A DNA stretch of 64,000 nt, from assembly GCF_016469035.1 (NCBI RefSeq), contig NZ_JAEHJZ010000032.1:148788-212787 (forward strand), in the 5' to 3' direction. The DNA comes from Gelidibacter salicanalis. Its GTDB lineage: Bacteria > Bacteroidota > Bacteroidia > Flavobacteriales > Flavobacteriaceae. Of the stretch, positions 52,655-64,000 are shown in pieces (the first letter of the stretch is position 1; each line of letters starts with the position of its first letter). The position numbers and the translations under genes were made by a program. The notes under the pieces were generated by a model that saw only the letters and a list, made by a program, of their open reading frames with translations, ran no database searches and had not been told where the DNA came from.

Positions 52655-53277
52655 TTATTTTAACTTTTGGCCTGCTCCAACGTCGTCGAAAACTGGGAGC
52701 GGGTCTTTTTTTTGGTCAGTTTATAGGTTGACCAATTTATTTTTTTGTAAATTTTATCTCATAGGCATCTATATTAAGTGATAAGGGAAGCGGGGCCGCC
52801 GGCCTTAACCAGATCTCCATCAACCGGCAGCCCATTCCCAAAAGACTAAATCCAATTGCTCGCTATGTTGCACTATTTTTTTATAGTGCTGCCATTTCTT
52901 AGGGATGGAGGATTGCAGTTGGCACAGCGAGGTATTAATAGCAAGCTCCATTGGTGTTGTATGGTATCAGTTATTATTTTTAAAATTGTATTAATCCTTA
53001 ATTTAAAGGCTATTGCTCATTGGTTTTAACCTCGGCCTCTTTTTATTGGACGTCCTGAACGATTGTGCCAACAGTGGTTGGGAGGTTTTTTGTGATGTTT
53101 ATATATGCATAGGCTCCATTATTTAAAGTTAAATCAGGAATGTGCCGCATATGTTTTGTGCATAGCGGCAGCTATCCCAAAGACTAATTCTAACTATTTT
53201 AGTGCGAAACCTTTAAAAATAGAAAAGCAGTGCTAAGAATGAAGTGAGTAAAACCTTTGTGAATAAAAAAGGACGCA
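52655..53277. other. Noncoding stretch upstream of susC
   Basis: No gene I can support. Near 52672 an imperfect GCTCCA...TGGGAGC hairpin is followed by an eight-T run on the plus strand. The region changes from GC-rich to AT-rich at about 53.0 kb, marking the right edge of the GC-rich locus. Confidence 0.4.
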
Positions 53278-53405
53278 GAACTCAACTTATTGAACTAGAG
53301 GTACTGGTATACCCTGCAACAATAAGAGAGCCCACGTCCCGGGCCGTGAGCATCTTGCTTATCGTCTCGTTGCATTAAAATTACCAGTTTTCTAGTACGA
53401 GATTC
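53278..53405 (+). ncRNA. Candidate rod-shaped RNA, 6S-like
   Basis: The segment folds as one long rod with internal loops. Pairs from outside in: GAACTC/GAGATTC (one bulge), ACTAGA/TCTAGT, ACTGGTA/TACCAGT, TGCAAC/GTTGCA, ATAAG/CTTAT, and GC-CACG/CGTG-GC around TCCCGGGC. A rod with an asymmetric central loop and the GTGAGCAT segment recalls 6S RNA, which binds RNA polymerase. Strand not certain because a rod looks similar on both. Size of about 130-150 bases is short for 6S. Confidence 0.4.
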
Positions 53406-53559
53406 AAAGCGAATGCTTCAATGTTTTATTTGAAGAATCGCAAATTTAAAGTTTAATCTACATGTATCAAACTCTATATGAAACAAATATATATAATAAT
53501 CTATTAATAATCAAATATTTTCAATTGAAATAGATTATTATAATCATTCAATTTGTTTT

Positions 53560-54087
53560 ATGGAAGAATATATCCGAGAGCAAAAGAAAGAAATAGGAGC
53601 TAGAATTCAAAAGATTTTAGCTATTCTCGATTTAGAACCAGCGCAATTTGCTGCATTGACTAAACTTACTGTTAATACTATCATTAATATTGAATCTGGT
53701 AAAGGCTTTAATAGTAATACTATATTGAATATTTCTTTTTATACGGGAATGCCTTTAAATGTTTTACTTAATCTCTCTTCAAATAGAATTGATAAAACTA
53801 CACTGATCAAAAATTTTTGGTATAATGCCAAAACTTATAACTTTTCTGAATATGAAAAATTCAACGAAAAACGTTTTACAATCGTGGAAGCGATAAGAAG
53901 GTTAATAGAAGAGACTTCGTTTTTTGATATACCTAAAAAAACAGGAGAAGTTCGCAATCGTATTACAAAAGATTATTCTATTAAACTGGAAAGTTCTGCA
54001 GTTAGTCAAGCATTATTAGACTTTGTAGAGGATGGTCTACTTAATAAAAACAAAATTGGGTCAAGAAACTTTCATTACTCTAAGTGA
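53560..54087 (+). CDS. XRE-type HTH protein at the head of the cassette array
   Basis: 175 residues. An HTH at about 18-70 (AQFAALTKLTVNTIINIESGKGFNSNTILNI) in the Cro/C1 style. The second half (NEKRFTIVEAIRRLIEETSFFDIPKKTGEVRNRI, SSAVSQALLDFVEDGLLN) looks like a winged-helix or dimer domain. It is AT-rich like the array behind it, lies 91 bases before the first cassette end and is not itself flanked by the repeat. Possibly the array's regulator. Confidence 0.65.
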   Translation: MEEYIREQKKEIGARIQKILAILDLEPAQFAALTKLTVNTIINIESGKGFNSNTILNISFYTGMPLNVLLNLSSNRIDKTTLIKNFWYNAKTYNFSEYEKFNEKRFTIVEAIRRLIEETSFFDIPKKTGEVRNRITKDYSIKLESSAVSQALLDFVEDGLLNKNKIGSRNFHYSK

Positions 54088-54120
54088 TTTTTTTTTATTT
54101 AAGTTGGAGGTGAAACTATA

Positions 54121-54178
54121 TGACTGAGAATACTAGCGCAGGGTTCTGTGAGAGGCTTAGGGTGAAACTCCCAAAACC
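54121..54178 (+). other. Group II intron-like scrap before the first cassette
   Basis: GGTTCTGTGAGAGGCTTAGG and GTGAAACTCCC resemble the end of domain V and start of domain VI of bacterial group II introns, but the 3' half does not pair back properly and no intron ORF is present. It ends directly at the GTT that opens cassette 1. Confidence 0.3.
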
Positions 54179-54214
54179 GTTAGCATTAATTTAAACGAAC
54201 ATTAGAGAAATCAT

Positions 54215-56110
54215 TTGAAGAATAGTGAAATTAAAATAAAATTTTGGATTGAACTTTGGGAAGATTTAATTAATAATTTCTTGAAAAGGTCTTATGGACT
54301 CACCTTATATTCACCACATATTTTAATTGAAGATATTATAGTTGAAATTGAAGAAAACCAATTTAGAAACAAAGAAAACAGAAAATACTTTTATTCTAAC
54401 TTATCTGACTTTTTAAAAAATGATGAAGTAATCCAAAATCATTTTAAATCCGAGTTTACACTATTAAGAAAAGACTTTAATTCTGACAAGACTAATTACA
54501 CTCTTGCTTTATGCAAAAAAATTAATGAATCTTTCAAAAAAGGAATTTATTTCCAAAAAACATTAGTTCTAACAGAAAAAATACTACTAGAAGACACAGA
54601 ATTAGATATCAAATTTGTTAATAAAATAAACTATTATTCTCAAAGCTTAATTGTTGAGCTCATCAGAAAATCATATGCATTAGAGGATGTGAAAAAATTC
54701 CTTAAGAATATTTTTGATGTGTATCATTATCACGGAGATTCATTAATAACAGATTTCCCACATAATATAGATTATTCAGAATATAAAGATGAAAATGAAA
54801 AAATCGACTTTAAAAAAGCTGAGGAAGTTGTAAAAAACATAATGGATAATCTCTCTTTTAAAGACAGAATAAAGAAACTATCATATTATTACAGTAAAAA
54901 AACTGAGAAGGTAAAATACATCTTCTTTATTAAAGGAATAAAAGGAGAAATTGACAAAACAATCTTTGGTGTAAATTTTTATAACATAAATCAAAAAAGA
55001 TTTACTGAAGAGGATAGAACCTACGATTCAGAAGATTTACAAAAGCATCTTGAAAAAGATAAATACCTACAAGCAGCTGTAGAAATTGATTATTTACTAC
55101 CTAAATCATCATTAAAATTTGCAAAATCAAAAATTGAAAATGCATTAGATATCCTCGCTTGTTATATTAGATTTAAAACAGATGTGGCATTAAATGAATC
55201 AAATTATATTATTGTAAACAAAGATAATAGATTGATATTCTCAACTTCTGGCAGAGGAAAGGATGATATATTTATGAACTATCACGATGCCTTAAATTTT
55301 AACGAACTAGAAAACCATATTGATAGTCTTAAAGAATTTTCGTTTTTATGGAATTCAAAGAAAAATTCAGAGACAGTTTCAAAAATCAAAAACGCTCTTC
55401 ATTGGTATAGAAAAGGAGAACAATCAAGTAAAGAAGCTGATAAAATGCTAAATTATTGGATTGCAATAGAAAATTTATTCAATTCAAAAGAGGACATTAA
55501 AAAAGATATTTTTTCAGATATTCATAAAAGTAAATTTGACTTAATCCAAGAGATTATAGCTTCTGAACAGATATTCAAATTCGTATATGAATATGGCTGG
55601 GAACTGTATCATTATTTCAGTCATAAAGAAAGAAATCGTTTTGAAAAAACAGATATACCAGAAAATCTTGTAGAGCTTGGACAACTAAATCCAGAAGTAG
55701 GAACAAGTATTTATTTAGAAAATTTTATAAAAATTCTGCCTGAATTAAGAGTCTATGAAAAGAATTTATTCATTTTAGATAAAATAGATGCCGTAATAAA
55801 ATTCTATTCTGATTCATCGTTTACAAAATCGGAAATATTAAATCACATTGGACAAGTTAAAAATGACGTTTTGATGATTTATCGATTTAGAAATCTAATT
55901 GTGCATAATGCTCATTTTGACAACACTCTTTTACCATATTTTGTTTGGAAGACAAAATCTTATTGTGGTGGAATTTTAAGGAAATTTATAAATAGCGACA
56001 AAGAGGATTCAAAGTTAAGTGATATAATTTTTGAGATTTTCATCGAAAAAGAAAAATTCTTGTTGGATTTTGAAAAGGGAAATATAAATTTATTTGAGAA
56101 AAAAAACTAA
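54215..56110 (+). CDS. Cassette 1: large HEPN protein (Apea-like)
   Basis: 631 residues from a TTG at 54215, the only sensible start near the cassette edge. The first 390 residues are unknown, helical and lysine-rich. The C-terminal 230 form a HEPN domain of the Apea type: ADKMLNYWIAIENLFNSKED, and R559-NLIV-H564 (RX4-6H), the catalytic motif of HEPN RNases. Such proteins are usual abortive-infection effectors. Stop TAA at 56108-56110 lies in the right arm. Confidence 0.7.
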   Translation: MKNSEIKIKFWIELWEDLINNFLKRSYGLTLYSPHILIEDIIVEIEENQFRNKENRKYFYSNLSDFLKNDEVIQNHFKSEFTLLRKDFNSDKTNYTLALCKKINESFKKGIYFQKTLVLTEKILLEDTELDIKFVNKINYYSQSLIVELIRKSYALEDVKKFLKNIFDVYHYHGDSLITDFPHNIDYSEYKDENEKIDFKKAEEVVKNIMDNLSFKDRIKKLSYYYSKKTEKVKYIFFIKGIKGEIDKTIFGVNFYNINQKRFTEEDRTYDSEDLQKHLEKDKYLQAAVEIDYLLPKSSLKFAKSKIENALDILACYIRFKTDVALNESNYIIVNKDNRLIFSTSGRGKDDIFMNYHDALNFNELENHIDSLKEFSFLWNSKKNSETVSKIKNALHWYRKGEQSSKEADKMLNYWIAIENLFNSKEDIKKDIFSDIHKSKFDLIQEIIASEQIFKFVYEYGWELYHYFSHKERNRFEKTDIPENLVELGQLNPEVGTSIYLENFIKILPELRVYEKNLFILDKIDAVIKFYSDSSFTKSEILNHIGQVKNDVLMIYRFRNLIVHNAHFDNTLLPYFVWKTKSYCGGILRKFINSDKEDSKLSDIIFEIFIEKEKFLLDFEKGNINLFEKKN

Positions 56111-56114
56111 TGCT

Positions 56115-56396
56115 AATAACTAAGAATTCGGCTCGCCGATAGGCCAGAGCTGAATTTTGTGTTGACGAATCCGGTTGATTTGCCATCTATGGGTAAAACG
56201 ATGAGTTGAGGGAGGGATGGTTGGAGGTTGTGCTGTGATTGATTTGGTGAGGTGTGTACATACGTAGTGGTTACTCATTTTACTCGCATCATAAAATAAA
56301 AAGTGCTTTGATTAAATTGTATCCCATCCTTAAAAGTAATATGTTTGATAGGAACATATAATAAATATAGACGCAACTGGTTGCGTCTATATATGA
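56115..56396 (+). repeat. Array repeat R1 (tail type A)
   Basis: Starts AATAACTAAGAATTCGGCTC and has the common hairpin (AATTCGGCTC GCC GATA GGC CA GAGCTGAATT), the common middle (TTTGCC...GGGTAAA hairpin, ATCC...GGAT pair), then tail A ending in the perfect hairpin AGACGCAAC TG GTTGCGTCT just before the next cassette. Confidence 0.85.
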
Positions 56397-56419
56397 GTTG
56401 GCAACAATAAGAGAAAATT

Positions 56420-57070
56420 ATGGCATACAAGGATTTTATACAAAATAACACATATTACTATTTAGCAGATTACCCTTTGGAATGTCCTGAATGTCATCAG
56501 AAGACAACTCCGAATTATACGAATCATAGAATTGCCAATAATTCCCGTTTATTATATGCCAATTTATATTGTCCAAATCCAAATTGTGAAAAAAGTTATA
56601 TTGGAGAATATAAATTAGATGGGAAAACTTATTTTTTTACTAAAGTTATAATTGGTAAACCTAAAAAAACGTTTTTCTCCGAGGAAATATCGACAATATC
56701 ACCAATGTTTTTAAAAATATATAATGAATCCTTTACTGCTGAACAGATGCAATTATTAGAAATTTCAGGTGTTGGATATCGAAAAGCACTTGAGTTTTTA
56801 ATAAAAGATTTTTTAATTAAAATGAAACCAGATAAATCGGAACTTATTAAGAAAATGTTTCTTGGTAAATGTATAGCCGAATTAGTAGACGACCCTAAAA
56901 TAAAAACTACAGCCAAAAGAGCAGTTTGGCTGGGCAATGACCATACACATTATATAAAAAAATGGGACGATAAAGATTTAGCCGACTTAAAAAAGCTAAT
57001 TCGATTAACTATAAATTGGATTGAATCGGAAATTTTAACAGCGGAATTAGAAACATCGATGCCGGAATAA
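56420..57070 (+). CDS. Cassette 2: zinc-ribbon DUF4145 (HEPN-like) protein
   Basis: 216 residues. A zinc ribbon at the N-terminus (C22, C25 in CPEC; C51, C56 in CPNPNC) and a DUF4145 helical domain: GVGYRKALEFLIKDFL, then KRAVWLGNDHTHY, where R...H fits the HEPN-like motif of the family. DUF4145 proteins occur in restriction and defence loci. ATG 24 bases after the cassette edge. Confidence 0.75.
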   Translation: MAYKDFIQNNTYYYLADYPLECPECHQKTTPNYTNHRIANNSRLLYANLYCPNPNCEKSYIGEYKLDGKTYFFTKVIIGKPKKTFFSEEISTISPMFLKIYNESFTAEQMQLLEISGVGYRKALEFLIKDFLIKMKPDKSELIKKMFLGKCIAELVDDPKIKTTAKRAVWLGNDHTHYIKKWDDKDLADLKKLIRLTINWIESEILTAELETSMPE

Positions 57071-57082
57071 ATTACTGTTACC

Positions 57083-57475
57083 AATAACTAAGAATTCGGC
57101 TCGCCGATTACTCCCTTCGGTCATGAGTAAGTTGGCCAGAGCTGCATACTGTGTTGACGCATCCGGTTGGTTTGCCATTTGTGGGTAAAACGTTGGGCTA
57201 AGGGAAGGATGGTTGGAGGTTGTGCTGTTTTGGGCGGCCAAGTAGTATAGAACCGTCTTGTTCTATAACTTGTTAAGTGCTTTGCTTGTGGTTTGAATTT
57301 AGGATGCTTGGTTTTTATCGTTTAGTTTTAAAGTTGGGGCTTATTTGGCCCCCAATTAGTTGGGAGTGCTATTTTAGATTTCAAATGTATACATTTGAGA
57401 ATAACAAACAGGAATGGCATGGGGTGCATAGGGGGTATATGGCACTCTGTGTTGTATATATAAATGTTGGCAACA
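57083..57475 (+). repeat. Array repeat R2 (tail type B)
   Basis: Common part with an extended hairpin tip: between GCC and GGC is an added TTACTC...GAGTAA stem. Tail B follows: TTGGGG...CCCCAA hairpin, then a stretch with AGTGCTATTTTAGATTTCAA and a CAGGAATGGCATGGGGTGCA block, ending TATATATAAAT before GTT. An open frame of 67 codons here (57277-57480) is part of the repeat. Confidence 0.85.
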
Positions 57476-57494
57476 ATTAAAACCAAGCGTACTT

Positions 57495-58232
57495 TTGGAC
57501 AAATCAATTAGAAATTTACAACCACCAAACCAATTAGCTGAAGGCTTTTTGAAATTTGCGAAAGAGGTAAATCAAAAATCCATTGATTTAAACACTAAAT
57601 TCTCTGAAGAAGAAATTTGTGATATATTCAACAACAGTTTTCCTGGGAAAATCAGAGCAAATTTCCTGTTATGGATTGGAGATTTAAATAAGATTATAAG
57701 TGGAATTAATATCATTCTGTCTGACCTATCTGATTTAGAGAATAACAAAAAATCTCTAAAAGGAAATCCTGTTTCAAGAAGCGAATTTCTCTTTCAAGTC
57801 TTTTTTGGAGAATTTTTCAGAATTAGAGAAACTTCAAAAATATTTATTAAGATTTTGACAAAAGAAAAAGTTCTAAATAACAAAGGAAAAAAATCCGTTA
57901 CGGAATTTTATTTTATTGCATTTAAGAAAATGTATGAAATAAGGAATATGTTTATACACGAAGGTTTGAGTTTCAAAGATTATGACATTGAATTTGGAAA
58001 GGAGTTTTATGAAATACTTTCGAAAGACGAGCAAGAAAAATTTATGAAACTAATAAAAGAATCTAACACAAGAGAGAATACGATTGAAATTCAATGTGCA
58101 ATTTATATTAAATTCATTAATAAAATTATGTCTGACTTTTTAGAGTTTCAAGATTTATTAAGCAACCTTTTGGCTGATTTAATAATTGAATATGAAGGAA
58201 AAGCATTAAAAATAACTGTTGCCAATAACTAA
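57495..58232 (+). CDS. Cassette 3: HEPN-like helical protein
   Basis: 245 residues from a TTG at 57495, 19 bases inside the cassette. Entirely helical. R150-NMFI-H155 (in YEIRNMFIHEG) fits the HEPN RX4H motif, as does its helical setting. The last two residues NN and the stop TAA are encoded by the repeat itself (58224-58232), so the cassette had no stop of its own in this frame. Confidence 0.6.
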   Translation: MDKSIRNLQPPNQLAEGFLKFAKEVNQKSIDLNTKFSEEEICDIFNNSFPGKIRANFLLWIGDLNKIISGINIILSDLSDLENNKKSLKGNPVSRSEFLFQVFFGEFFRIRETSKIFIKILTKEKVLNNKGKKSVTEFYFIAFKKMYEIRNMFIHEGLSFKDYDIEFGKEFYEILSKDEQEKFMKLIKESNTRENTIEIQCAIYIKFINKIMSDFLEFQDLLSNLLADLIIEYEGKALKITVANN

Positions 58233-58525
58233 GAGTTAGGCTCGCCAATTGGCCAGAGCTTAATTGTGTGTTGATGCATCCGGTTGATTTGCCGTCTATG
58301 GGTAAAACGTTGAGTTGAGGGAAGGATATTTGGAAGTTGCTCAGTGATTGATTTGGCCAAGTGTGTACATACGTAGTGGTTACTTATGGGAAAGTATCTT
58401 TTCTCATTTTGTACGCATCATAAAATAAAAAGTGCTTTGTTTAAATTGTATCCTATTCTTAAAAGTAATATGTTTGATAGGAACATATAATACATATAGA
58501 CGCAACTGGTTGCGTGTATACATGT
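58224..58525 (+). repeat. Array repeat R3 (tail type A)
   Basis: The common hairpin is AGTTAGGCTC GCCAATTGGC CA GAGCTTAATT: compared with R1, one C-G pair has become A-T, a compensatory change that supports folding. Tail A is nearly the same as in R1; the end hairpin is GACGCAAC/GTTGCGTG. Confidence 0.85.
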
Positions 58526-58558
58526 GTTGCCAGTAATACAACAAAAATCGAGAAATTA

Positions 58559-59437
58559 ATGGGCGTATCAGAAAATTTTAAAACCTTTTGTGACGATTTA
58601 ACTATCTCAACAACCAAACGTACGACCATTTCAATAAGATTTAATGCTATAGTTAAACGGCTTAATAACGATTTTTGGAATTTGGATTCAACAACTGGTG
58701 GAAGATATTTAGGTTCCTATGGTCGTCATACGGCAAACGACAGAGTCAGCGATGTCGATATGCTGTTTGAAATGCCTTGGTCAGTCCACGCAAAATATGA
58801 TAAATATATTAGCAATGGACAATCTGCGCTTCTTCAAGATGTCAAAAATTCAATTGCTAAAACTTATCCGTCAACGTATCTAAAAGGCGACGGACAAATC
58901 GTTCAAGTTACATTTTGGGATTCTAACAAATTTGAAGTTTTGCCAGCATTTAAGCATACGGATAATACATATACCTATGGCGATTCAAATTCCGGAGGTA
59001 GTTGGAAAAAAACAAACCCGATTCCCGAAATTAACGCTATTAATTCAGGAGATAATTTAACAAATAACAATTTAAAAAGACTTTGTAAAATGACACGTGC
59101 TTGGAAATTTCATTGTGACGTGCCAATTAAAGGTTTACTCATAGACACATTAGCATATCGTTTTTTATTGAGTTGGGAACATCGCGATAAATCCTATCTT
59201 TATTACGACTGGATGTGTCGGGATTTTTTTGCATTTTTAAAAAATCAAACTTCCACTCAAACTATTTGGTATGCAGTTGGTAGTATGCAATCTATCTATA
59301 ATCCCGATAATTTTAGATATAAAGCAACAATTGCTTATAATAAGTCTATCGATGCGATAAAGCTTGAAACTGATGGGAAACATTGGTCAACAAAACAAAA
59401 ATGGAGAGAAATATATGGAATCAGATACCCAAGCTAA
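58559..59437 (+). CDS. Cassette 4a: CD-NTase (SMODS nucleotidyltransferase)
   Basis: 292 residues from the ATG at 58559 (an upstream ATG at 58514 would start inside the repeat). GSYGR (52-56) followed by D65 and D67 in SDVDMLF and a third acidic site at FEV (E126) form the nucleotidyltransferase active site of the SMODS/CD-NTase family, which makes cyclic oligonucleotide signals in CBASS defence. TNNNLKRLCKMTRAWK and IDTLAYRFLL are typical of the C-terminal half. The SLATT gene overlaps its end by 23 bases, so the two are coupled. Confidence 0.85.
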   Translation: MGVSENFKTFCDDLTISTTKRTTISIRFNAIVKRLNNDFWNLDSTTGGRYLGSYGRHTANDRVSDVDMLFEMPWSVHAKYDKYISNGQSALLQDVKNSIAKTYPSTYLKGDGQIVQVTFWDSNKFEVLPAFKHTDNTYTYGDSNSGGSWKKTNPIPEINAINSGDNLTNNNLKRLCKMTRAWKFHCDVPIKGLLIDTLAYRFLLSWEHRDKSYLYYDWMCRDFFAFLKNQTSTQTIWYAVGSMQSIYNPDNFRYKATIAYNKSIDAIKLETDGKHWSTKQKWREIYGIRYPS

Positions 59438-59978
59438 ATTAACTATGGAATCCCAATTAAGGGAATTGTATGGTCGAACAGTATGGACGCACAAGACACA
59501 GGAAAAGTGTGCCGATATACTTCGTGCACGAAATCATAATATGAAGATTTTTCAAATAACGTTATCTGCCCTGACAACAACTGGAATTTTAGTAACTGTA
59601 TTTGGAGAAAATTACACTGTAGGCATAATATCTGCTATTCTATCTGCAATTTTATTCACGTTAAATGCATATTTCCAAAAATATGATTTAGGAGAAATTG
59701 CACAAAAACATTCTGAATCCGCATCGGATATTTGGAATGTTAGAGAAAAATATCTTTCATTACTTACAGACTTAAATTCTGGAGTTTTGAATATCGTAGA
59801 AATCGGTAATAAACGTGATGAACTACAATCTGAACTATTTAATATTTATAAAGGAGCGCCAAGAACTTTAAGTAAGGCTTACAAAAAAGCAACAGAAAGT
59901 TTAAATATTAAAGAGGAGTTGACATTTTCAACCGAAGAAATAAATAATCTTTTACCTAAAGAATTAAGACGTGAATAA
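59415..59978 (+). CDS. Cassette 4b: SLATT membrane protein, CBASS-type effector
   Basis: 187 residues from the ATG at 59415. A helical start, two membrane helices in a hairpin (about 44-63 and 67-87) and a cytoplasmic helix (LGEIAQKHSESASDIWNVREKYLSLLTDL) define a SLATT protein, known to pair with SMODS nucleotidyltransferases as a pore-forming effector. No Cap2/Cap3 genes are present, so this is a minimal two-gene system. Both genes lie in one cassette. Confidence 0.8.
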   Translation: MESDTQAKLTMESQLRELYGRTVWTHKTQEKCADILRARNHNMKIFQITLSALTTTGILVTVFGENYTVGIISAILSAILFTLNAYFQKYDLGEIAQKHSESASDIWNVREKYLSLLTDLNSGVLNIVEIGNKRDELQSELFNIYKGAPRTLSKAYKKATESLNIKEELTFSTEEINNLLPKELRRE

Positions 59979-59990
59979 AGTACTACTGGC

Positions 59991-60225
59991 AATAACTAAG
60001 AATTCGGCTCGCCGCACCTGTCCCGCCTTAGCGGGGTAGGCCAGAGCTGAATTTTGTGTTGACGAATCCGGTTGGTTTGCCGTTTATGGGTATAATGATG
60101 GATAAGAAATGGACCTTGGATTCTTTGTATGAATCAGGTACATTTGAGAAAGAGAAACCAAAATAACATGGTGTACATAGGTGATATATACGTCACTCCT
60201 AATGTCATATGTTATATATACACAT
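59991..60225 (+). repeat. Array repeat R4 (short tail)
   Basis: Common hairpin with another tip: CCCGCC TTA GCGGGG inserted between GCC and GGCC. The middle is cut short after GGGTATAAT and joins directly to the 3' end of tail B (KKWTLDSLYESGTFEK-coding stretch). Ends TATATATACACAT before GTT. Confidence 0.85.
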
Positions 60226-60268
60226 GTTCTACGCAATTTGACCAAACTAACCCGAATTTAATGACTGA

Positions 60269-61030
60269 ATGAAATTGAAATGTCTTTGGTGTCTTAATGA
60301 ACAACCACAAGTTACTTTTAACAAAAAAGCTCACACGATACCCAAATCTTTGGGAGGACAGAATTACAATAAGAATGTTTGTGATGATTGCAATTCATTT
60401 TTTGGAAATAAACAAGAAGTGAATTATTCTATTGAAGAGGCTTTAAAGGAAACTTTCAACATAACACGAAGAAGGCTATTGATGGACACTAAACAGAAAC
60501 GTCAAGTCGGAAAATTTAAATCAAGATTTTTTGATATTAAAGAGCGAAATGGAAAGCCAAGACTTGTCATAAAACCATCTTTCCGACTAAATTCAACATT
60601 CCAAAGAGAATTATGTTATTATTTCAAACGCGGACTTTACAAAATGTATTTGGAAGAATTAAACAGGCAAACTGGAAAAGGATTCGAGCCAAAATATGAT
60701 AATATCAGAAATTTTGCAAGATATGGAAAGGGAACTGCAACTGTCCTGTATTTTAACCGAGTGATAGGAATAATGTTAATGTTTCGAAGTGAAGCAGAAA
60801 CACCAATTTTATATTTCGATAGAATGAAATATTTATATTCTAATGAGCAATTTGTAGAAATTGAATTTCTTGGACACGTATTTGGCTTTCCGATAACAGT
60901 ATACACGCAGTCGGATTTTAACAGTTATATAAAAAAGTCATTAGAAGAAAAAAAGAGATTTTTCAAAAATGCAAAAGAAATTGACAAACTAACTGATGTA
61001 GATTTAAGCTTGAGAATAATGAACAGCTGA
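60269..61030 (+). CDS. Cassette 5: HNH-type nuclease-like protein
   Basis: 253 residues. The N-terminus is an HNH-like zinc motif: C5 and C8 (CLWC), the AHTIPKSLGG segment with H22, and C38, C41 followed by N42 (CDDCNSFFG), as in HNH_5 families. The remaining 200 residues are unknown, with FKRGLYKMYLEELNRQTG and a strand-rich end (IEFLGHVFGFPITVY). Start 43 bases inside the cassette. Probably a defence or restriction nuclease. Confidence 0.65.
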   Translation: MKLKCLWCLNEQPQVTFNKKAHTIPKSLGGQNYNKNVCDDCNSFFGNKQEVNYSIEEALKETFNITRRRLLMDTKQKRQVGKFKSRFFDIKERNGKPRLVIKPSFRLNSTFQRELCYYFKRGLYKMYLEELNRQTGKGFEPKYDNIRNFARYGKGTATVLYFNRVIGIMLMFRSEAETPILYFDRMKYLYSNEQFVEIEFLGHVFGFPITVYTQSDFNSYIKKSLEEKKRFFKNAKEIDKLTDVDLSLRIMNS

Positions 61031-61045
61031 ATAAAAACTGCGTAG

Positions 61046-61461
61046 AATAACTAAGAATTTGGCTCGCCGATAGGCCAGAGCTGACTATTGTGTTGACGCA
61101 TCGGGTTGGTTTGGCGTCTATGGGTAAAACGTTGGGTTGAGGGAAGGATGGTTGGAGGTTGTGCTGTTTTGGGAGGCCAAGTAGTATAGAACCTCTTGTT
61201 CTATAACTTGTTAAGTGCTTTGCTTGTGGTTTGAATTTAGGATGCCTGGTTTTTGCCGTTTAGTTTTAAAGTTGGGGCTAATGTAGCCCCCAATTAGTTG
61301 GGAGTGCTATTTTAGATTTCAAATTTATACATTTGAGATATGAACTATAAGAAATGGACCTTGGATGCTTTACAGGAATCGGGTATATTTGAGAACGACA
61401 AACAGAAATGGCATGGGGTGGATAGGGGGTATATATGGCACTCTATGTTGGATATAGACAT
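61046..61461 (+). repeat. Array repeat R5 (tail type B, full)
   Basis: The longest complete copy. Tail B has the hairpin GGGGCTA atg TAGCCCC, a better stem than in R2 with compensatory bases. Contains an ORF (ATG 61340) that runs through the cassette edge. Ends TATAGACAT before GTT. Confidence 0.85.
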
Positions 61462-61480
61462 GTTGGACATAATTATATAA
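61340..61480 (+). CDS. Small ORF inside tail B (46 residues), doubtful
   Basis: MNYKKWTLDALQESGIFEND and onward; closely related peptides (KKWTLDSLYESGTFEK; KKWTLYALQESGTF) are encoded in R4 and in the following partial repeat, with some third-position changes. It could be an old coding sequence caught up in the repeat or simply conserved DNA. Stop TAA lies inside the next cassette fragment. Confidence 0.25.
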   Translation: MNYKKWTLDALQESGIFENDKQKWHGVDRGYIWHSMLDIDMLDIII

Positions 61481-61516
61481 GAATGATAACAGATTTAAGA
61501 ACTTCAATATTACATC
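61462..61516 (+). pseudogene. Remnant of a lost cassette (6a)
   Basis: Starts with a proper left edge, GTTGGACATAA, then 55 bases of AT-rich DNA that end abruptly within tail B sequence. No gene and no right arm remain, so most of the cassette and the first half of its repeat were deleted. Confidence 0.6.
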
Positions 61517-61701
61517 ATTATTTGGCCCCCAATTAATTGGGAGTGCTATTTTAGATTTCAAATTTATACATTTGAGATATGAACTTTAAGAAATGGACCT
61601 TGTATGCTTTACAGGAATCGGGTACATTTTGAGAACGACACACAGAAATGGCATGGGGTGCATAAGTGATATATACGTTACTCTGTGTTATATATAACCA
61701 T
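61517..61701 (+). repeat. Partial array repeat (3' half of tail B)
   Basis: From TTATTTGGCCCCCAATTA to TATATATAACCAT. Nearly identical to R5 and R2 from the CCCCCAATTA point on, including the KKWTL coding stretch, which here has an extra base and is out of frame. Lacks the common hairpin. Confidence 0.75.
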
Positions 61702-61720
61702 GTTGGCATTAATTTGAGAA

Positions 61721-62389
61721 ATGGATAAACTAATAGAAAGAATACTTAAATTTTTTGAAAATAAATCTATTCATTTTGGTTTAAGGACTTCTCTATTTAT
61801 AATTTCTATTTTTGTTTTAACGACTTGCGATTACTATTTAAATTTCACTTATGATATTCATCTAGATAACAAAATTGAAAAATTAGAATCAATTAATAAT
61901 CTAAAGGAAATATATAAAACTGATTCTATAAAACTATCTGAACTGACTGAATTAGAAAATCGGATTTACAAAAGAACGCACTATTCTGACCGATTACGCA
62001 TTTTGGATTTAAACCAAATCAATATTTTCAAGAAATCGGACACAACTGAAATCAAAAGACCAATTATTAAAAACGATAATACTATTACAAATAAACCCAT
62101 TCGTTCATTATTTTGGATGGTTTTGTCATCTAATTATTTCTTTATTATTTTAATTATTGGCTTAATAATTATGCCTTTTACTGGCTCTGTACACAGAGAA
62201 TTAAAAAATGTTTTAGGTGCTATTGCCGCAATAATTATAATAATCGGAATTATATATTTAATCACTTCTATTGCTTATAAGATTCCTTTGTTATGGAATA
62301 AACCATATTTGAATTACATACTTAATTTCTTAATTCACTCACCTTTTATTTATTTAATATTTTGGTGGAATAAAACAGGAAAAAACTAA
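61721..62389 (+). CDS. Cassette 6: four-helix membrane protein, unknown
   Basis: 222 residues. Membrane helices at about 22-41, 130-152, 166-188 and 198-216 with a soluble loop of 85 residues between the first two (DKIEKLESINNLKEIYKTDS and onward, probably helical and periplasmic). No family recognised. In a defence-rich array a membrane effector is possible but unproven. ATG 19 bases inside the cassette. Confidence 0.55.
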   Translation: MDKLIERILKFFENKSIHFGLRTSLFIISIFVLTTCDYYLNFTYDIHLDNKIEKLESINNLKEIYKTDSIKLSELTELENRIYKRTHYSDRLRILDLNQINIFKKSDTTEIKRPIIKNDNTITNKPIRSLFWMVLSSNYFFIILIIGLIIMPFTGSVHRELKNVLGAIAAIIIIIGIIYLITSIAYKIPLLWNKPYLNYILNFLIHSPFIYLIFWWNKTGKN

Positions 62390-62393
62390 TGCC

Positions 62394-62682
62394 AATAACA
62401 AAGAATTAGGCTCGCCGATAGGCCAGAGCTGCATATTTTGTTGACCCATCCGGTAGGTTTGCCGTCTATGGGTAAAACGTTGGGTTGAGGGAAGGATTGT
62501 TGGAGGTTACGCTGTGATTGATGTGGTCAATATGCAATGTAGCGCGAAAGGATCTTTTTGAAATTACTTATCCTTTATATGCAGTTGTTTTACTACAGGG
62601 AAAAATGAATAAGTGGAACAGAAGTTCCATTTATCCGGGTAATATAAGGTGTAAATGTTTATATTAGGTCCACATATAACGA
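62394..62682 (+). repeat. Array repeat R6 (tail type D)
   Basis: Begins AATAACAAAGAATTAGGCTC. The common half is intact to GGAGGTTACGCTGTGATTGA, then a tail unlike A or B (ATGCAATGTAGCGCGAAAGG, GGAACAGAAGTTCC hairpin). It ends CACATATAACGA before GTT. Confidence 0.8.
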
Positions 62683-62713
62683 GTTTCACACCAGCTAAAA
62701 CCAACATAGAGAA

Positions 62714-63922
62714 TTGAACCAACAAACAGTAAAATCATTTATTCAGGAATACAAAAATTCATTTGACCGAATAAACAAACACGAACTTTACAAATGGAAA
62801 GCAGTTAAACAATTCCAAACTCATTGGAATATTGACGCTTCGGATTTTGCTTCAATGCTCGAAACTTCATTGAGTAAAACAGCAAATCTTTTAGATAGTC
62901 ACAACACATTTCCTTTTCGAATGGTTTGTGAAAATGCCAAGCAATCGCCTGAAAAAATCCGTTTACTATTTAAAGGTTTGTATGACGAAAATTTGGACTT
63001 AACAGAACGAGTTAAAACTTTCAGAGCGGAATTTAAAACATTAAACGAATCAAATTTTTCTGGTAAAAACAACTATCAAGGACAAAGAACAGTTGTTGTT
63101 TACTTGACATTGAAATATCCAGAAAGATATTTCTTCTATAAATTCGGTATGTTCGACAAGTTTTCTGACATAGTAAATTATCATTATAAACCAATAAAAG
63201 GTCGTTACGAGAATATCATTCAATTCCAAAATCTATGTGAACTTTTAAAATACGAACTTGAAAATGACCAAGAGCTCATAAAACTTCACAAAGAGAGGAT
63301 TGATGATGATTGTTATTATGACAAAAACTTAAAAATTCTTACCCAAGATTTTGTTTATGCAGTTGTTCGACATTTAGATGTTGAACCTCTGCTAAAAGAA
63401 ACTGAACCTGAAAACATATTTGAATTAAGTCAAGGACTAACTACTTCTGTTCAACTTGCTGAAACTGGAATTGATTTTACACCACGAACAATTAATCATA
63501 TCCAAAATAATATTGCAAACAAAAGAATTGGAGATTTAGGCGAGATTTGGGTAGTGAATTATGAAAGAGAGAAATTAAGAAAATTAGGTAAACCAAAATT
63601 GGCAAATAAAGTCGAACATACGGCAAAGAATTTTGGAGATGGAGCAGGTTTTGATGTAATGTCATTTAATGAGAATGGAGATAAAATGTTCATCGAAGTT
63701 AAAACAACAAAAGGTGGTTTAAATTCAACATTTTACATTACACGAAACGAATTGGAAAGAAGTTTAGTAGAAAAGGAAAACTATTACGTTTATAGACTTT
63801 ATGAATTTGACGATGACAATAACACCGGAAAGTTATTAATTCTAAATGGAGAATTAACTAACCTCTGTCAAACACCAATAAACTACAAGGTAACGATGAA
63901 AAAGCCAGCTTGTAATAACTAA
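62714..63922 (+). CDS. Cassette 7: DUF3883 restriction-like nuclease
   Basis: 402 residues from a TTG at 62714. The N-terminal 240 are unknown. The C-terminal part is DUF3883, a PD-(D/E)XK-type fold: GDLGEIWVVNYER (glutamate), GAGFDVMSF (aspartate), MFIEVKTTKGG (ExK) and FYITRNELE. DUF3883 occurs in Type IV-like restriction and other defence proteins. The last residues NN and the TAA stop come from the repeat. The arms of this cassette do not match, so it may be a hybrid. Confidence 0.75.
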   Translation: MNQQTVKSFIQEYKNSFDRINKHELYKWKAVKQFQTHWNIDASDFASMLETSLSKTANLLDSHNTFPFRMVCENAKQSPEKIRLLFKGLYDENLDLTERVKTFRAEFKTLNESNFSGKNNYQGQRTVVVYLTLKYPERYFFYKFGMFDKFSDIVNYHYKPIKGRYENIIQFQNLCELLKYELENDQELIKLHKERIDDDCYYDKNLKILTQDFVYAVVRHLDVEPLLKETEPENIFELSQGLTTSVQLAETGIDFTPRTINHIQNNIANKRIGDLGEIWVVNYEREKLRKLGKPKLANKVEHTAKNFGDGAGFDVMSFNENGDKMFIEVKTTKGGLNSTFYITRNELERSLVEKENYYVYRLYEFDDDNNTGKLLILNGELTNLCQTPINYKVTMKKPACNN

Positions 63923-64000
63923 GAAGAATTCAGCTCGCCGATTACTCCCTTCGGTCATGAGTAAGTTGGCCAGAGCTGCATACTGTGTTGACGCATCCGG
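63914..64000 (+). repeat. Array repeat R7 (cut by the window end)
   Basis: Begins AATAACTAAGAAGAATTCAG (three extra bases) and shares with R2 the TTACTC...GAGTAA tip. Shows that the array continues to the right. Confidence 0.8.

Follow-up and report, generated by a model that had tools for sequence, protein, structure and literature searches.

Cassette-specific complementary ends in an integron-like array of Gelidibacter salicanalis and in arrays across the Flavobacteriaceae

At the end of one contig of the flavobacterium Gelidibacter salicanalis, seven gene-sized cassettes that start with GTT alternate with long repeats that start with AATAAC, and the bases at the two ends of a cassette are complementary to each other although they differ between cassettes. 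What kind of system produces such ends? The DNA analyzed here, called the window, is the 64,000 nt that close contig C242 (148788-212787) of a draft assembly of 5.16 Mb in 682 contigs; the contig end falls inside a repeat of the array. Our answer is that the window very probably belongs to an integron-like gene-capture system and holds some of its cassettes; in such a system each recombination site (attC) would be split between the two ends of a cassette, as a sequence-only reading of the same DNA had proposed.

That reading had described complementary ends in six of the seven cassettes, and they are present as described. In cassettes 1, 3, 4, 5, and 6, the seven bases 3′ of GTT (the start arm) and the seven before AATAAC (the end arm) are perfect reverse complements of each other. 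Cassette 2 matches at 6/7, the exception being an A opposite a C, which is T.G on the opposite strand. Position 8 of cassettes 1 to 6 is C at the end and A at the start, and pairing resumes at positions 9 to 11. The arms of cassette 7, whose GTT is at 62683, agree at 3/7, below our 6/7 rule; across its 11 arm positions, six standard pairs and three possible bottom-strand G.T pairs would let 9/11 pair. The features of the array are as follows (ORF, open reading frame; the element and recombinase block named here are treated below).

54142..54172, plus strand: intron-like 31 nt directly upstream of the first GTT, similar to a group II intron 3′ end (group II nature by eye); 93.5% identical over 31 nt to locus L055 8481-9253.
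54179..56114, plus strand: cassette 1, GTT + AGCATTA ... TAATGCT; 631-aa ORF, MauJ match just under cut-off.
56115..56396, plus strand: repeat 1, IS91-family end (89.5% over 124 nt to the IS91-type element), continuing into a palindromic tail that resembles, by eye, attI in other flavobacterial heads.
56397..57082, plus strand: cassette 2, GTT + GGCAACA ... TGTTACC (one A x C); 216-aa ORF, DUF4145 match under cut-off.
57083..57465, plus strand: repeat 2, IS91-family end (78.0% over 209 nt) and a weak match to the recombinase-gene tail at 57390-57440 (78.4% over 51 nt to the recombinase block).
57466..58223, plus strand: cassette 3, GTT + GGCAACA ... TGTTGCC; 245-aa ORF, no Pfam match.
58224..58525, plus strand: repeat 3, IS91-family end (87.9% over 116 nt), then a palindromic attI-like tail (by eye).
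58526..59990, plus strand: cassette 4, GTT + GCCAGTA ... TACTGGC; CD-NTase (SMODS) and SLATT_4 effector.
59991..60225, plus strand: repeat 4, IS91-family end, then recombinase-gene tail and attI (60114-60228, 95.7% over 115 nt to the end of the recombinase and attI block of L055 and L202).
60226..61045, plus strand: cassette 5, GTT + CTACGCA ... TGCGTAG; 253-aa HNH_5 protein.
61046..61701, plus strand: repeat 5 (78.6% over 234 nt to the IS91-type element), enclosing the truncated start of a cassette (GTT at 61462), and with a recombinase-gene tail/attI-like end at 61582-61704 (74.2% over 132 nt to the recombinase block).
61702..62393, plus strand: cassette 6, GTT + GGCATTA ... TAATGCC; 222-aa ORF, no Pfam match, membrane-like by eye.
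62394..62682, plus strand: repeat 6, IS91-family end (84.1% over 138 nt), then a tail like the attI-like site of the head in genome G277 (by eye).
62683..63913, plus strand: cassette 7, arms 3/7; 402-aa protein with NOV_C domain (PADLOC PDC-S36-like).
63914..64000, plus strand: repeat 7, ended by the contig end; 33 nt match to the IS91-type element.

Arm complementarity extends well beyond the window. Nineteen loci of the G. salicanalis genome yielded 47 sites (52 detections, minus five false ones and one that lacked an arm at a contig start, plus the window's last site, added by hand). An upstream partner matching at 7/7 was found for 16 of the 47, against a mean of 0.58 (maximum 2) with swapped arms, and one matching at 6/7 or better for 26 of the 47, against a mean of 4.06 (maximum 9). 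For a test independent of the arms, sites were set by a profile built solely from the AAC...GTT stretch. It was applied to 19 loci from 15 other flavobacterial genomes; two of these genomes had contributed profile sequences from other loci. The 310 matches included 253 with both ends placed, which delimited 231 cassettes between neighboring sites. Arms matched at 6/7 or better in 186 of these (shuffled mean 7.7, maximum 14) and at 7/7 in 116 (shuffled mean 1.9, maximum 8), so that the within-cassette covariation expected by the sequence-only reading is borne out in genomes that it did not see. When the flanks on either side of a single site were compared, which come from different cassettes, 6/7 was reached in only 19/252 cases. 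Position 8 was C x A in 184/231 cassettes and never in the opposite order (0/231). Every placed site within a locus lay on one strand, and the longest ORF ran with the cassette in 186 of the 231, opposite to it in nine, and was absent at a minimum of 50 aa in 36. Not all of the 231 count as independent, since some cassettes of genome G136 are copies of one another (100 same-genome pairs in total). A scan for arm pairs was used solely to find arrays, because it also returns chance pairs: its reversed control gave 0 to 9 per strand (at L153, 9 against 15 matches). Two G136 loci, L181 and L179, contain many short cassettes of ∼300 to 330 nt with the same arms, recurring along the array.

The G. 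salicanalis genome and others of the family also contain plain attCs of the same system, ∼120 to 190 nt long and with AAC and GTT. To describe their fold, we drew on 42 records (39 unique), each having arms, the C and A of position 8, and a 3′ end that could be placed; rows that lacked a placed end were left out, and 31 sites were aligned (30 of 118-128 nt and one from the G. salicanalis genome). On the bottom strand, AAC/GTT and a 16-pair stem account for pairing in 96.4% of cells. Twelve pairs vary on both sides, and for each of five covariation measures, none of 500 shuffles was as high. Two stem positions are G.U on the bottom strand in 27/31 and 30/31 sites, the exceptions being A-U (two and one), C-G (one), and unpaired (one); on the top strand, both are A.C mismatches. 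In an alignment of the best 150 matches in other loci, which is fitted to the site model, 99.5% of cells pair and the two positions are G.U in 138/139 and 139/139 distinct rows; here, three of the five measures were reached by none of 500 shuffles and one by 10. DNA folding of the circle form made the bottom strand the more stable one in 38/39 sites, whose arms had been picked by the scan. A folded bottom strand as the substrate fits these observations, because the two nearly fixed positions pair as G.T only on the bottom strand and are A.C on the top, and because the stem reaches position 11. The bottom strand is also the one on which IntI acts in known integrons, as the available text of two papers describes (PMC8946536, PMC3053210).

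Is there a recombinase to act on such sites? The sequence-only reading suggested a tyrosine recombinase next to arrays of this kind; one is found at array heads in the G. salicanalis genome and in others, and the window array itself has none adjoining. The G. salicanalis genome has one close recombinase gene, intact and encoding 397 aa (C662:152439-153629). The gene is followed by TATATACACAT, then directly by GTT and by cassettes, the first of which ends in a plain attC of 123 nt. Relatives of the recombinase occur in 57/199 family genomes at E ≤ 1e-60, with G. salicanalis counted. We retrieved 18 recombinase stretches and scanned 17 for arm pairs (L152 was left out); none were found in L145, L150, L154, and L155, which are short or at contig ends. 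The Saprospiraceae relative L208 gave no pairs either. In a test of 15 heads (that of G. salicanalis with six and eight from two other sets), with a threshold of 6/7 or better and C at position 8, the end arm of the first cassette was present downstream in 13, at 7/7 in 12 and at 6/7 in one; L203 and L207 yielded none. Of ten further heads, nine could be read (no frame in L219), and these have GTT-N7-A, also a chance pattern, 26 to 111 nt past the stop codon, behind a box that is palindromic or TATA-like by eye, and in five of the nine a 7/7 end arm followed within the 1.4 kb examined. A 128-aa ORF on the minus strand of L055 (1015-1401), zinc-ribbon-like by eye, lies within the conserved block beside the recombinase gene and could be accessory.

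The recombinase differs from IntI in a defining feature. Its best NCBIfam models, NF040815 (193 bits, cut-off 220) and TIGR02249 (187.8, cut-off 265), both score under cut-off. IntI4 residues 185-247 align against only residues 293-312 of the recombinase, and the stretch from KG.KDR to LRH measures 70 to 71 aa in all 21 aligned relatives (25 of 28 requested proteins gave a row, four of these being other types). Because the IntI insertion is lacking, the recombinase is not an IntI by the definition given in the portions available to us of PMC2426708 and PMC9668308.

Comparison of close genomes points to GTT as the boundary of exchange. The recombinase block of G. salicanalis is 93 to 96% identical to three Gelidibacter records, and among these four the match stops 1 to 5 bases beyond GTT. 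The blocks of G. gilvus and Aequorivita lipolytica are 77 to 78% identical to that of L202, and the match stops at GTT. The recombinase-attI block is thus common to six genomes (77-96%), and their six first cassettes all begin differently. G. maritimus and G. japonicus have 3.8 kb in common at 93%, comprising the left flank, the recombinase, and attI, and diverge afterward; here, the match extends 13 bases past GTT, and the first arms are alike by chance or descent. A 544-nt stretch that is 98.7% identical in these two species lies ∼0.6 kb past attI in one and 9.4 kb past it in the other. The left flank of an uncultured Gelidibacter block is unlike the others, and the block itself may therefore also move. 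Cassettes, too, recur in different genomes: one of ∼990 nt is common to G136, G180, and G186 at 89 to 98%, another of 668 nt is common to G268 and G198 at 89%, both ending at most 16 nt from GTTs. Between two genera, a shared cassette reaches 97 to 98% identity. A relative of the ∼990-nt cassette's gene lies in the G. salicanalis genome at L045 13032-13845 (88-89%), with a G057 copy at 86%. A fixed cassette order among related strains, which the sequence-only reading had named as evidence against itself, was not seen: the window's cassettes stood in window order in 0/9 congeners, where, besides repeat and attI pieces, just a 64% relative of the cassette 1 gene was found. That relative, in G007, was considered as a moved cassette; no matching arms were found, and it is not used as evidence.

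In the mechanism that we propose, the recombinase would, like IntI, act on attC folded from its bottom strand and so excise and insert cassettes at GTT, with new cassettes entering at the attI-like site behind the recombinase gene. By sequence, most cassettes end in an attC whose outer stem draws on both ends of that cassette. An IS91-family element lies between the arm and AAC of attCs, and its end, in places together with the recombinase-gene tail and attI, gives the long repeats of the window.

The sequence-only reading had taken the 235- to 416-bp repeat for a giant attC. We dropped that interpretation once plain sites of ∼120 nt turned up, and reading the repeats as terminal inverted repeats of a transposon was ruled out by the arms, which vary per cassette. 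A repeat search of the G. salicanalis genome gave at least 46 BLAST pieces (best 40 of 82 candidates scored). Full-length versions have two genes on the minus strand, one for an IS91-family transposase (NF033538, 406 bits, cut-off 125) and the other for a tyrosine recombinase, whose open frames reach up to about 306 aa. Copies of this element lie at L044 1-2435, L045 4326-6751, and L055 6055-8480, and their tyrosine recombinase is 32 to 35% identical to the integron-like one. The L044 copy encodes an IS91-type transposase with Y2 and zinc-binding domains; the window repeats carry only the end of the element. Eight copies of its right end, GGAGGATTCGTTC and close variants, are all followed by AAC, and five of the eight by an L-type box. 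One attC is present as L057 lacking the element and as L045 containing it, identical at 120/126 nt. This pair, and right ends that are always followed by AAC, place the element between the attC arm and AAC, as though it recognized sites of the same type.

Six of the seven window repeats start with ∼105 to 250 nt of the element end, in places interrupted by a variable hairpin, three (repeats 2, 4, and 5) continue as recombinase-gene tail or attI-like sequence, and the tails of repeats 1, 3, and 6 resemble, by eye only, attI-like sites of other flavobacterial heads. Judged by this composition, the long repeats are chimeras, attC sites altered by a second mobile element. The sequence-only reading had also proposed that AATAAC/GTT replaces the conserved core of known attCs, RYYYAAC/GTTRRRY in IntI integrons. 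The part of that claim that stands is the departure from the consensus: AAC/GTT is kept and the following bases vary (GTTGGCA, GTTCTAC, GTTGCCA). AATAAC itself arises at the element junction (AACAAC in one copy), and plain sites have AAC/GTT. On contig C1 of genome G243 (L226-L231) lie six copies of a tyrosine recombinase, similar to one another, their open frames 217 to 305 aa long; they are perhaps from the IS91-type element. Ends that resemble group II introns by eye lie in or beside attCs in either orientation, at L055 8481-9253, L204 12770, L147 5426 and 8267, and L048 275 and 3351.

How does the system compare with known ones? IntI integrons (class 1 to 3 and Vibrio chromosomal) are alike in having a recombinase gene beside attI, a single cassette orientation, and a cassette start at GTT, and in their palindromic attC with GTT/AAC, an inner L-type stem, and a structure favoring the bottom strand. 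They differ in three respects and perhaps in a fourth. The recombinase here lacks the IntI-specific additional domain, or patch. The outer stem of its attCs extends as far as position 11, and position 8 is C x A, in place of the RYYY/RRRY of IntI attCs. The recombinase points with its cassettes at the loci examined, whereas the integrase of known integrons is usually oriented opposite to them. A fourth difference may lie in the L stem, which has two nearly fixed G.T positions where IntI attCs carry extrahelical bases, going by the site anatomy set out in the accessible text of the papers used for this comparison (PMC3053210; known-site anatomy also from PMC8946536). In the sequence tests other than the IntI insertion and the R-box consensus, the system appears to work like an integron.

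Three other comparisons concern the arrays that lack a recombinase and the elements found within attCs. Clusters of attC lacking an integrase are called CALINs in the consulted part of PMC9024848; the window array, with attC-type sites and no adjoining recombinase, is CALIN-like, and it is unlike CALINs in that recombinase-bearing heads exist in its own genome and others. The element inside attCs encodes, like the IS91 family, an IS91 transposase, together with a tyrosine recombinase; IS91 members can carry an accompanying tyrosine recombinase gene. It differs in being found at one place in attC, between the arm and AAC. Group IIC-attC introns, and group IIB introns in CALINs, are described in the part of PMC7923331 available to us, and the intron-like ends at the attC arm or GTT here (by eye) resemble that situation.

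The sites are widespread in the family, as the search with a site model that the sequence-only reading called for made clear: attC sites were found at E ≤ 0.001 in 257/299 family genomes and 210/236 genera. At E ≤ 1e-5, 50/198 genomes of the phylum had a match, and 148/198 had none by the same method; both samples include the G. salicanalis genome. Ten single-contig genomes contained at least 136, 102, 130, 117, 33, 64, 54, 31, 127, and 26 sites, counts that may be too low because at most the best 150 candidates were scored per genome, and nine of the ten had a recombinase match at E ≤ 1e-30. In genus g142 of the phylum sample, the distribution is patchy, with no attC match (E ≤ 1e-5) in seven of nine genomes, one match in one, and nine in one.

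Several points weigh against the integron-like reading. No recombinase lies beside the window array; one of the ten single-contig genomes, G094, has an array and no recombinase match at E ≤ 1e-30; and, in separate samples, close recombinase matches (57/199, E ≤ 1e-60) are rarer than attC matches (257/299). In the window repeats, the 5′ half of the L stem that usually adjoins AAC is missing, and some of them may therefore be inactive. Among the 231 cassettes, 45 fall below 6/7. No end arm of the first cassette was found in G. maritimus (1.9 kb examined) or G. japonicus (9.9 kb examined), nor in four of the nine further heads within the ∼1.4 kb examined. Of 28 cross-genome matches, most have at least one end away from any detected GTT, in part owing to undetected sites. 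The 39 folded and 31 aligned sites were found by their arms, which accordingly prove nothing, and the fifth covariation measure of the best-150 alignment, both-side pair changes, was reached by 280/500 shuffles. Excision and insertion of cassettes are inferred from sequence.

Some of these points are what would be seen if the arrays were fossils of a once-active integron, with cassettes lost or shuffled by homologous recombination between repeats. The greater frequency of attC matches than of close recombinase matches fits that account, as does a G. salicanalis genome with one close recombinase copy and many altered repeats. We nonetheless regard it as unlikely, because the arms stay complementary though they differ between cassettes, the first cassettes of close species diverge right past GTT, and a cassette is 97 to 98% identical in two genera. 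Still less probable is that the repeats are IS91-family transposons, or ones resembling miniature inverted-repeat transposable elements, and the cassettes DNA trapped between adjacent insertions. The repeats do have IS91-type ends, and full copies do encode an IS91 transposase and a tyrosine recombinase; this known type of element explains the interior of the repeats but not the cassette-specific complementary ends. It also sits between the arm and AAC, and plain arrays free of the element have the same type of arm, which contradicts that account. Just as improbable is that the complementary ends act as a signal in the RNA transcribed from the cassette, for example as a stem for processing or stability. 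They flank the cassette and could pair in the transcript, but at the constant nonstandard positions the sense strand has A.C, and pairing (G.U) is confined to the opposite strand; the species blocks, too, stop at or just past GTT.

Returning to the integron-like system, the evidence tilts slightly toward a larger proposal: that it is a large, separate flavobacterial lineage of integrons with a patch-free recombinase, in which strand choice would be coded by the nearly fixed G.T positions and the cassette-specific stem of ∼11 positions, and in which, in the window's genus, the IS91-type element would scatter copies of attI as new entry points. The available text of PMC9024848 names one Bacteroidetes species with a complete integron, Salinibacter ruber M1, and, from earlier work, only integrases lacking cassettes, and the phylum or the Bacteroidetes/Chlorobi group is listed among those with integrons or intI genes in the accessible parts of PMC9668308 and PMC2426708. 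A literature search covering titles and abstract openings, with preprints and most subscription papers outside it, returned no report of flavobacterial cassette arrays. Should the mechanism hold, one of the main routes by which genes are exchanged in a major group of environmental bacteria would have been unlisted so far, and the role of the IntI patch in single-strand recombination would become directly testable.

A search of window positions 53000-64000 against Rfam 15 gave nothing above the gathering score, and two matches with E of 0.38 and 0.47. As to cargo, the CD-NTase and SLATT_4 effector of cassette 4 form a defense-like pair resembling a cyclic oligonucleotide-based antiphage signaling system (CBASS) within one cassette. 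Directly before the intron-like remnant at the array start, positions 53560-54087 of the window encode a 175-aa protein with helix-turn-helix matches under cut-off.

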